Shown here piece by piece: positions 39,032 to 42,488 of a stretch of 64,000 bases of DNA. The DNA comes from Verrucomicrobiota bacterium (GTDB lineage: Bacteria; Verrucomicrobiota; Verrucomicrobiia; Limisphaerales; UBA9464). The notes under the pieces are model-generated. The model was not told where the DNA came from and did no database searches. It worked only from the letters and a program-made list of their open reading frames with translations. The stretch is from NCBI GenBank assembly GCA_947471985.1, contig CANIZL010000001.1, forward strand, positions 1 to 64,000, in the 5' to 3' direction. How positions within the stretch are numbered: position 1 is the stretch's first letter; each line of letters begins with the position of its first letter. Both the position numbers and the translations under genes were made by a program.

Positions 39032-40108
39032 CTACGGCGACAGCGCTTTTTTCAGGTGTGGCGCGAGGCGCTTGGTGAACTCGATCGAGTCTGCGTTCGA
39101 GAGATGCGACCATTCCGGGCACTCGAATCCAGCCAATTCCGGGAAATCTTCGAAGTAAATCCCCGGCGCGCCGCTCTCCGCCAGAAGGCGTGTCCACGGT
39201 CCCTGCCGGGGCGTGGCTTGGTCTTCGATTTTCTTCACTTCACCGGACACGGGGAAGCGCACGAAGACCACCTTGCCGCCACGGGCGCGGATCGCCTTGA
39301 CCGCCGCCGCTGCGTCCTTGAAGCGGGCTTCAACAGCCTGTTTCACGCCCGCAAGAAAGGCCTCCCGGGGCACGAAGCTTGGAGGCGGGGGCGGGGTGAA
39401 CAGGGGCAGCCAACCCAGCTTCACCCGGTTCTGCAGCGGTCCCGGCTGGGCGCAGGGTTCAAACATGCGGGGGCGTCGTTCCCGGTCCGCCGTGCTGAAA
39501 TAGGGAGGAAGCGGGGGCGGGGCCAGCGCTCCTGGACGGTTAGGGATGGGCAGCCGCTTCAAGAGCTGGCCGAGCGTCAGATCGTCCTGCTTAAGAAAGG
39601 CTAAACGCTCTTCGAGCAGCATGACCAACTGATGACCGGACCGCTGAGCCAGTGTCCGCGTCCGATACTTCTTCAGGGCATCCTCGGCATTTGCGATCAA
39701 GGGGCCGCCGGGAGCGAAAAACATCAAGGGCACGACACTGCAGATCACGGTGCCGCGGAATTGCGGGTCGGCCGCCAGATTCGCCAGGACCGGATAGGCG
39801 CAGCTGCCGGCAATGGCGAGCTGAATGGGGCGTTGCCCCAGACCCTTTTCCAATTGATCCAAATCCACGTCAAAAAGCGGTCGCGAATCGCCGATGATGA
39901 CCAGCGAATCCGGGCGCACCGCTTCGCGCCGTTCCGCCCAGAGATCCGGCGTGTCGTTGAGCGTCGGGCCGTAGCCGAGGCTGCGACAATACAGCTCCCA
40001 CGCGACGACCGCCGCGGGCGTCAACGCGACGGCGATTCCGGCCAGCCGGTTCCAGGGCTGGGCCGGTATGGTTCGTTCAAAACTGGAAATAGATGAAGGC
40101 ATTGCCAT
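39032..40108 (-). CDS. SGNH/AlgX-like protein of the MBOAT pair
   Basis: The 358-residue protein has one N-terminal membrane segment (LAGIAVALTPAAVVAWELY) and then an SGNH-hydrolase-like fold with the block I motif VIIGDSRPLFDVD. The C-terminal PEWSHLSNADSIEF resembles the catalytic-histidine block but has Glu rather than Asp three residues before His. Such proteins work with MBOAT acyltransferases (AlgI with AlgX/AlgJ, DltB with DltD) to O-acylate exported polysaccharide in the periplasm. It overlaps the MBOAT gene's end by 32 bp (or 26 bp from the ATG at 40102). Pro-rich stretches (FTPPPPPSFVP) are unusual. Confidence 0.78.
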   Translation of the reverse strand: MAMPSSISSFERTIPAQPWNRLAGIAVALTPAAVVAWELYCRSLGYGPTLNDTPDLWAERREAVRPDSLVIIGDSRPLFDVDLDQLEKGLGQRPIQLAIAGSCAYPVLANLAADPQFRGTVICSVVPLMFFAPGGPLIANAEDALKKYRTRTLAQRSGHQLVMLLEERLAFLKQDDLTLGQLLKRLPIPNRPGALAPPPLPPYFSTADRERRPRMFEPCAQPGPLQNRVKLGWLPLFTPPPPPSFVPREAFLAGVKQAVEARFKDAAAAVKAIRARGGKVVFVRFPVSGEVKKIEDQATPRQGPWTRLLAESGAPGIYFEDFPELAGFECPEWSHLSNADSIEFTKRLAPHLKKALSP

Positions 40109-41498
40109 TCCCTTGGATGAGGATGATTGCGCCGGCGAGGAAGGTCCAACCGGCGGCCATCAGCCAGCGGGGTAGTCGCACCACCATCGCTTCAATCGAA
40201 GTGGAGCGCAGGACCCAGTGAGAAAGGAGCAGTCCAGCCGTTACCAGGGCGACCTGGAGAATTTCCCGGGTGGAGAGAATTGCATCGCCGCGGGGAAAAG
40301 AACCCACCATGGCTCCGATCAGTCGCAGGGCGGTGTTAAAATCGGTGGCGCGGAAAAACACCCACGCAAAACAGACCACAACGTAGGTCGCGAGCCCGAA
40401 TAGCAGCTGGGCGGCCGTCGATTGCGTCCATTTAGCTTCGTGGAAGAGGGATCGCAGCACCCGTTCCGCCACCAGGCAGACGCCGTGGATCAATCCCCAG
40501 ACCACAAAGGTCCAAGCCGCTCCGTGCCAGAGGCCGCCGACGAACATTACGATCATCAGGTTGATGGCCGCCCGTACGGGTCCGGAGCGATTACCCCCGA
40601 GGGGGATGTAGGGATAGTCCCGGAGGAAGGTGGAGAGCGAAAAATGCCACCGACGCCAGAAGTCCGAGAAGCCCACGGCGGCGTAGGGAAACCGGAAATT
40701 ATCCTTCAGGCTGAAGCCCAGGCAAAGCGCCGCACCGATGGCGCAGGTCGAATAGCCGGCGAAATCGAAGAAGATCTGTCCCGCGAAGGCCAGGACGCCG
40801 GACCAGGCATCCAGGGTCTGAATCGGGCCCCCGTGACCGAAGACCGTATCCACGGAGCTGGAGAGCAGGGCGTCCGCCAGGACGACCTTTTCAAACATGC
40901 CGAACGTCAGGAGGAAAAGGCCCCAGTAAAACCGATTCCGCACGGGCACGGGCGGAGCCACACATTGCGGGAGAAAATCCGCCGCGCGCACAATGGGGCC
41001 GGCCACCAGCTGGGGAAAAAACGAGACGGCGAGGACGAAATCCCGCAACGACTTGGTCGGCTGCGTTTCGCCGCGGTAAACGTCCAGCGTGTAGGACAGG
41101 GAATGAAAGGTGTAGAAGGAGATGCCGATGGGCAGAAAGACATCCAGGTGGGGCGGTTGGTATTGGACGCCCACGCGGGCCACCAGCCACTGGAAATTCT
41201 CGAGCAGAAAGTTCCCGTATTTAAAGAATCCCAGCATGCTGAGGTTCACCGCCACGCTGGCGATCAACCAACCCCGCCGCGTGCGGGGCGTGGACGCTTG
41301 GGCGATCTGCGCCCCCAGCACGAAATCCAGGGCGGTGGTCGCGAACAACAACAGCGCGAAGGGCGGATTCCAAGCTCCGTAAAAAATATAGCTGGCGACC
41401 AACAGCAGGTTCTTGCGGGCGTTCCAGAAGGTGAGACTCCAGTAGCCGGCCAGAACCAGGGTGAAGAAGACGACAAACGTCAGCGAATTGAAAAGTAT
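40077..41498 (-). CDS. MBOAT-family O-acyltransferase (AlgI-like), start codon anomalous
   Basis: This polytopic membrane acyltransferase has the MBOAT catalytic histidine in FVGGLWHGAAWTFVVWGLIHG and the family motifs FFPQLVAGPIVRA, FDFAGYSTCAIGAAL and NFRFPYAAVGFSDFWRRWH. It would move acyl groups across the membrane for polysaccharide O-acetylation with its SGNH partner. The conserved N-terminus (LFNSLTFVVFFTLVLAGYWS) is encoded, but the codon expected to be ATG reads ATA at 41498, and no ATG, GTG or TTG lies in frame back to the TAA of the upstream hydrolase. The first conventional start is TTG 41402, which would lose the first membrane helix. Length from ATA is 473 residues. Confidence 0.85.
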   Translation of the reverse strand: MLFNSLTFVVFFTLVLAGYWSLTFWNARKNLLLVASYIFYGAWNPPFALLLFATTALDFVLGAQIAQASTPRTRRGWLIASVAVNLSMLGFFKYGNFLLENFQWLVARVGVQYQPPHLDVFLPIGISFYTFHSLSYTLDVYRGETQPTKSLRDFVLAVSFFPQLVAGPIVRAADFLPQCVAPPVPVRNRFYWGLFLLTFGMFEKVVLADALLSSSVDTVFGHGGPIQTLDAWSGVLAFAGQIFFDFAGYSTCAIGAALCLGFSLKDNFRFPYAAVGFSDFWRRWHFSLSTFLRDYPYIPLGGNRSGPVRAAINLMIVMFVGGLWHGAAWTFVVWGLIHGVCLVAERVLRSLFHEAKWTQSTAAQLLFGLATYVVVCFAWVFFRATDFNTALRLIGAMVGSFPRGDAILSTREILQVALVTAGLLLSHWVLRSTSIEAMVVRLPRWLMAAGWTFLAGAIILIQGNGNAFIYFQF

Positions 41499-41600
41499 CG
41501 GTAGGAGCGATTCTTTTGGGAAGGGTGCGCAATTTCCACAGGCCGAGGTCGCCGGTGATGCCCGGGTGCTTAAGAACTCGAACCAAGGATTCGCTGACGG

Positions 41601-42488
41601 TTACACCACGCCGTTTTTTCGGAACCAAGCGAGCATTTGTTTCCAGCCGTCTTTCGCGGCTTCGGCACGATAGCTCGGGCGATAGTCTGCGTGAAAAGCG
41701 TGGGGCATTCCGGGGTAGACGTGGATCCGGGATTGCTTGTCCTTGCCGGCGGCGGCGAGGGCGGCGTTCAGTTTGTCGATGGCCGCCTGCGGAATGCCCT
41801 GGTCGGCCCCGCCGTAAAGCCCCAATACGGGGCCATTGAGTTGGGCCGCGACGTCCGCCGGCGTCAGGGGCATCGCGGGCGGGGCGGCGTTGAGACCACC
41901 GTACCAGGCCACCCCGGCTTTGATTCCCGCGTGGTGCGCCGTGTACATCCAGGTGGTGCGCCCACCCCGGCAGAAGCCGGTTATACCGAGCCGTTTAATG
42001 TCGGCCTTGGCCTGTTTGCCGGCCCACTCGACGGTCGAGTCCAGATCGGCAAAGCATTGCTCATCGCTCAACTTGTTGGCCCCACCGATGACGTCCTTGA
42101 TCTCCGTCAGTTTGGTAAGATCCCCAATCCGGGAATAGGGTTCGGTGACGATGGCGAAGTAACCTTCCAGAGCGAGGCGGCGGGCCACGTCCTTGATGTG
42201 TTCGTGCGCTCCCCAGATCTCCGGGATTACGAGCACGGTGGCATATTTGCCGGCCTTTTTTGGCGCGGCGAAATAGAGGGGCAGGGACGCCTGGTCCTTG
42301 CCGGGAATCTTGAGATCGCCGGTGTCGAGGCCGTCGGCGGGGGTGACAATCAATTGTTGGGCCTGAATCGGACCCGCAGAAAGCGCCATGCCGGCGACCG
42401 CGGTGGTCACGAGAAAATCCCGGCGCGAACGCACGGTCAGCGGGTTCAGGCTTTGGTAGTGCGGATCCTGTGTGGGCGGCTTGTTCAT
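41601..42488 (-). CDS. Tat-exported dienelactone hydrolase-family protein
   Basis: The 295-residue protein has a twin-arginine signal RSRRDFLVTTAVAGMAL and a dienelactone-hydrolase-like alpha/beta-hydrolase fold: VLVIPEIWGAHEHIKDVARR, the cysteine nucleophile in ITGFCRGGRT, an acid in LYGGADQGIP and the histidine in GMPHAFHADYRP. It would hydrolyse an ester or lactone in the periplasm. It stands upstream of the MBOAT gene in the same frame and may share its transcript. The substrate is unknown. It is divergent from the CotH gene. Confidence 0.9.
   Translation of the reverse strand: MNKPPTQDPHYQSLNPLTVRSRRDFLVTTAVAGMALSAGPIQAQQLIVTPADGLDTGDLKIPGKDQASLPLYFAAPKKAGKYATVLVIPEIWGAHEHIKDVARRLALEGYFAIVTEPYSRIGDLTKLTEIKDVIGGANKLSDEQCFADLDSTVEWAGKQAKADIKRLGITGFCRGGRTTWMYTAHHAGIKAGVAWYGGLNAAPPAMPLTPADVAAQLNGPVLGLYGGADQGIPQAAIDKLNAALAAAGKDKQSRIHVYPGMPHAFHADYRPSYRAEAAKDGWKQMLAWFRKNGVV

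Follow-up and report, generated by a model that had tools for sequence, protein, structure and literature searches.

An ATA codon at the start site of an MBOAT O-acyltransferase gene in a draft genome of a Verrucomicrobiota bacterium

Initiation at AUA has been described for single genes in bacteria. A 2015 review places AUA among the bacterial start triplets, yet as a non-canonical one that is discriminated against by IF3 (PMC4611024, as excerpted). According to extracts of a study on Staphylococcus aureus (PMC13009471), AUA starts occur there in infC, in ccpN and, confined to one strain lineage, in citZ; three tested non-canonical sites gave ~10% of the AUG level in poor medium, and an extended SD was predicted for the infC, cvfC1 and ccpN sites. 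In Escherichia coli, a change of the rpoS start codon from ATG to ATA lowered the protein up to 5-fold, and the excerpted text of the same report quotes an efficiency of up to 1% for ATA from Hecht et al. 2017 (PMC12864459). Single ATA start codons, strain-specific ones included, are therefore already on record in bacteria, as judged from these extracts (PMC13009471, PMC12864459).

The case described here lies in the window, the 64,000-nucleotide stretch of contig CANIZL010000001.1 that was analysed, and concerns a gene of the MBOAT family, to which the O-acyltransferases of the DltB/AlgI type belong.

The ATA codon and the start position in relatives

The codon at positions 41498-41496 of the minus strand reads ATA and is followed by CTT TTC AAT TCG CTG. 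Counted from this codon, the coding frame of the MBOAT O-acyltransferase (40077..41498, minus strand) consists of 473 codons and a stop, and no stop interrupts it between a TAA at 41603-41601 and its own stop, which ends at 40077. This TAA belongs to the upstream dienelactone-hydrolase-family gene (41601..42488, minus strand), and none of the 34 codons between it and the ATA is ATG, GTG, TTG, CTG, ATT, ATC or a further ATA. As in genes that initiate at AUA, the homologous start position (41496..41498, minus strand) thus carries ATA, with no canonical start upstream. A sequence-only reading had claimed an MBOAT gene with ATA where ATG is expected and no ATG, GTG or TTG back to the hydrolase stop, and both claims are borne out; the range that it gave, 40077-41628, covers the MBOAT frame, while the stretch up to 41628 takes in the tail of the hydrolase gene.

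When the full NCBI table-11 start set is used, 40077-41600 contains a single ORF that reaches 400 aa, and it opens with the ATA at 41498. With ATG, GTG and TTG only, the ORF begins at a TTG at codon 33 (41400..41402, minus strand), the first canonical in-frame start, and is 441 aa long. The CTG noted earlier five codons in is indeed present as codon 6 (41481..41483, minus strand), a possible alternative weak start on our reading of the sequence; it is also found in several relatives beside a normal start and is hence not specific to the window genome. In the assembly, the third base of the ATA codon is one transition away from ATG. No homopolymer or other error-prone context was seen in the sequence at this codon, the window is free of N, and the MBOAT frame is otherwise clean.

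The start position was compared in two collections, which may omit records of the same genome or of a very near one. Of the 80 loci in the genome_contigs sample, four (L090, L091, L095 and L115) were not alignable at codon 1, and the 76 others have ATG (62), GTG (13) or TTG (1) there; among the 55 relatives with at least 60% identity, 45 have ATG and 10 GTG. The second set of 38 loci contains the window itself twice and three loci (L004, L007 and L008) not alignable at codon 1, leaving 33 further loci with 32 ATG and one GTG. One gene, listed as L010 and L067, was taken from both collections. ATA is thus conserved in 0/76 alignable relatives and in 0/33 further loci. Both close copies from the same family (genomes G026 and G033) have ATG at codon 1, and their DNA similarity to the window is strong from the start codon onward and drops just before it. 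Within the window genome, five clear and one weak other MBOAT loci were found, and the four that are alignable at codon 1 have ATG. Codon 1 of the relatives and the drop in similarity in G026 and G033 go beyond chance and fix the start position well, with ATA in the window alone, and the sequence comparison shows the codon at 41498-41496 to be the ancestral start of the MBOAT gene. Relatives that start elsewhere, which would have spoken against the sequence-only reading, were not encountered among the 76. That reading, which had named initiation at ATA or CTG, a point mutation or a miscalled base as possibilities and had suggested a comparison with relatives, is thereby supported.

The encoded protein and its upkeep

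The product was assigned to the MBOAT O-acyltransferase family (PF03062; 1.2e-23) by a score of 84.3 bits against a Pfam gathering score of 27. AlphaFold2 was given 27 aligned sequences, and its model (mean pLDDT 85.7) has a multi-helix membrane fold like that of DltB and is closest to the DltB structures 6bug and 8jem, the best PDB match being 6bug_C (E 1e-12, TM 0.61/0.69). Residues 123-344 also match DltB by sequence, including the WHG histidine. This residue, H325, does not vary across the 27 rows and lies opposite a WHG in DltB; we take its role to be catalytic. The score for the DltB equivalog (TIGR04091) is 138.3 bits and falls short of the curated cut-off of 375. On sequence and predicted fold, the gene is therefore classed as an AlgI/DltB-like MBOAT encoding a putative O-acyltransferase.

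In the predicted fold, residues 6-21 form helix 1 and residues 25-41 helix 2. Initiation at codon 33 would therefore leave out the whole of helix 1 and the first half of helix 2. The earlier warning that automatic callers beginning at TTG 41402 would lose the first helix is accordingly upheld by the 441-aa ORF and the model. For annotation, this means that callers restricted to ATG, GTG and TTG would trim 32 residues together with the first membrane helix.

Beyond codon 32, dN/dS is 0.093 to 0.156 against eight relatives, out of 54 others aligned. For the same eight, pN is 0.13-0.22 in codons 2-32 and 0.14-0.20 in the remainder. Codons 2-32 are thus kept as well as the rest, which would fit continued translation from near 41498 and a recent mutation alike. 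An ancient loss of the start with N-terminal decay is unsupported, as codons 2-32 show no decay. The window protein deviates from four of the 216 columns that are near-invariant. With L096 set aside, this is the joint highest number in 54 rows (two other rows have 4 and all the rest 0-3), and it may be a faint hint of longer relaxation. Its end branch in the tree is 0.26 long, compared with a median of 0.083, and is matched by those of L067 (0.31), L075 (0.32) and L085 (0.54). The excepted locus, L096 (3001-4419), has 31 near-invariant columns altered and a different sequence after the first helix, and looks damaged or misassembled.

Downstream, the MBOAT gene overlaps by 32 bases a partner gene of 358 aa (39032..40108, minus strand) that has no Pfam or NCBIfam match. 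The partner is matched, fully or partly, in 80/81 loci around MBOAT relatives, and its matches reach down to ~30% identity in Flavobacteriia and Gammaproteobacteria. The upstream hydrolase gene stands beside none of the 81 MBOAT relatives. The pair formed by the MBOAT gene and its partner (39032-41498 in the window) is patchy, a copy of at least 70% identity being present only in G026 and G033 among 34 genomes of the same family. In the tree, the copy in the window is separated from that of G026 (L067), and both lie among Opitutia-type sequences. This distribution could reflect horizontal transfer or repeated loss.

Survey of the genome and its initiation machinery

The survey for similar cases covered 1,967,638 bases (31%) of the 6,384,696-base genome, with 1,271 predicted genes. 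Genes were scored by the extent of codon-usage signal upstream of the first ATG, GTG or TTG; gene prediction was crude, and short upstream extensions are missed by this score. The MBOAT gene ranks first in the initial 763 predicted genes and second in all 1,271, five of which, itself included, have an upstream coding score of at least 10. The gene ranked first, C21:39072, was rejected, as an antisense repeat-protein ORF over its N-terminal half outscores the sense strand (155 vs 50); the remainder of the sense ORF encodes a CotH/LTD protein, and the antisense translation, named by eye, is presumably a Sel1/TPR-like repeat protein. Antisense frames also score higher at C1:117846 and C24:58389. 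The remaining candidate, C23:18659, was read by eye, from a motif, as a putative RsmE-like protein with a normal start further in. A genome-wide habit of ATA starts is thus not seen: the surveyed 31% holds no second credible case, and with the MBOAT gene standing alone among 1,271 predicted genes, a single event is favoured.

Two further features of the assembly were observed. A large CotH/lamin-tail-domain ORF overlaps an opposite-strand ORF that reads by eye as Sel1-type-like (L265 44-4651; G000:C21:38865-40310), and a gene caller could fuse this shadow with the CotH gene. At G000:C2:53634-55634, the sequence consists of 2,001 consecutive N.

A missing or broken IF3 was ruled out, as IF3 is encoded on contig C91, with a start read by eye as TTG after an SD-like GGAGG. 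The genome has 42 tRNA matches; in the 30 of these loci that were scanned, ARAGORN identified three tRNAs with the anticodon CAU. One of them, in L166, has the initiator form on our own reading of its sequence, and an altered anticodon of the initiator tRNA was likewise ruled out. There is no SD before the ATA, the duplex energy with the anti-SD being 0.2 kcal/mol, and none before the CTG at codon 6 or the TTG at codon 33. Among 399 leftmost-ATG starts, SD-like 4-mers precede 48, compared with 40 after shuffling, a comparison that is diluted by wrongly chosen starts. The RNA around the ATA is predicted to be weakly structured, at -7.2 kcal/mol, compared with a median of -11.1 across genome starts.

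The putative initiator tRNA (L166 1498-1574; G000:C36:16741-16814, minus strand) has the anticodon stem TCAGG/CCTGA, with the pair A29-U41 at the position where the E. coli initiator tRNA has G29-C41 (PMC11497404, as excerpted). A pattern left free at positions 29 and 30 and their partners gave 50 matches, putative initiator tRNAs assigned by that pattern, in 47 of 58 genomes (that of the window with its family and order relatives); all have A-U, and 11 of the 58 are without a match. A29-U41 may be a variant, shared across the lineage, of the initiator signature of three G-C pairs. Literature searches on ATA/AUA starts and on initiator tRNA variants brought up precedents for the former and, among the papers listed, nothing on the A29-U41 pair.

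Origin of the ATA codon and comparison with known cases

We hold, with a little more belief than doubt, that a recent and real change from ATG to ATA in the sequenced strain or population has left a weakly translated allele. The normal start codon of the 76 alignable relatives, the ATG in G026 and G033, the stop-free frame, the low dN/dS, the undecayed codons 2-32, the presence of IF3 and of a CAU initiator tRNA, and the S. aureus and E. coli precedents all speak for this reading. Such a change would have struck the codon at 41498-41496; as measurements in other bacteria suggest, protein production would continue at a low rate via an initiator tRNA pairing imperfectly with AUA, perhaps with a small contribution from the CTG at codon 6. 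The MBOAT gene would then be a weak allele heading to loss or reversion, and not a new kind of start. Against this reading, initiation at the AUA of the window gene may in fact be almost absent, since an extended SD was predicted at the S. aureus infC, cvfC1 and ccpN sites and the window gene has none; the four deviating near-invariant columns also weigh faintly against a recent change.

The same single substitution would suffice for a quite different origin, an error of consensus or binning or a minority strain variant chosen by the assembler, with a normal start codon in the organism itself. In its favour stand the draft state of the assembly (180 contigs), the lack of a second such case in the 1,271 predicted genes, and purifying selection on the rest of the gene, with all alignable relatives normal; the clean, N-free surroundings and the ordinary sequence context of the codon count against an error, which we regard as a serious though rather unlikely rival. 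That AUA is instead a functional start, kept because it holds expression of the acyltransferase low as in known AUA- or AUU-start genes, is doubtful. The preserved codons 2-32 and the weak structure around the start would suit it, as would the GTG and TTG starts of 14 of the 76 relatives, which show tolerance of weaker starts, and the near-absence of an SD signal genome-wide makes the lack of an SD normal here; however, no alignable relative has ATA and hence there is no conservation, and no other credible gene was found in the surveyed part of the genome. Translation might also have moved to CTG 6 (41483) or TTG 33 (41402), giving a shortened protein. Both codons are in frame, and for E. coli efficiencies of 0.86% (CUG) and 29.8% (UUG) of AUG are cited in the excerpted text of PMC11497404; yet neither is preceded by an SD, a start at TTG 33 would cost the protein the first helix and half of the second in the model, and codons 2-32 have not decayed, so we consider this improbable. 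We give still less weight to the broadest proposal, that AUA is a working, selected start in a lineage that initiates most genes without an SD and has an A29-U41 initiator tRNA, where this altered tRNA would render the choice of start codon more permissive and so let non-canonical starts arise and persist.

With the recent ATG-to-ATA change as the favoured explanation, the ATA of the MBOAT gene is an oddity that involves one base in one draft genome, and precedents for it are known. Should the codon prove genuine and in use, it would provide a further natural weak-start allele, here in a genome that seemingly makes little use of SD-led initiation. The encoded protein resembles the DltB/AlgI-type MBOAT O-acyltransferases in its Pfam match, its DltB-like predicted fold and the retained WHG histidine, and differs from them only in the start codon of its gene; its score lies well below the NCBIfam cut-off for DltB itself (138 vs 375 bits). 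Like citZ and ccpN of S. aureus, the first of which has its AUA start in one strain lineage only, it is a single bacterial gene with ATA at its start; initiation was measured there by ribosome profiling and reporters, as the extracts state (PMC13009471), whereas the window gene is known from sequence and lacks an SD. The rpoS variant of E. coli O104:H4 has undergone the same transition at its start codon, with the rest of the gene intact; according to the excerpted report, it arose in laboratory culture and its effect was measured (PMC12864459), in contrast to the ATA described here, which was read from an assembly.
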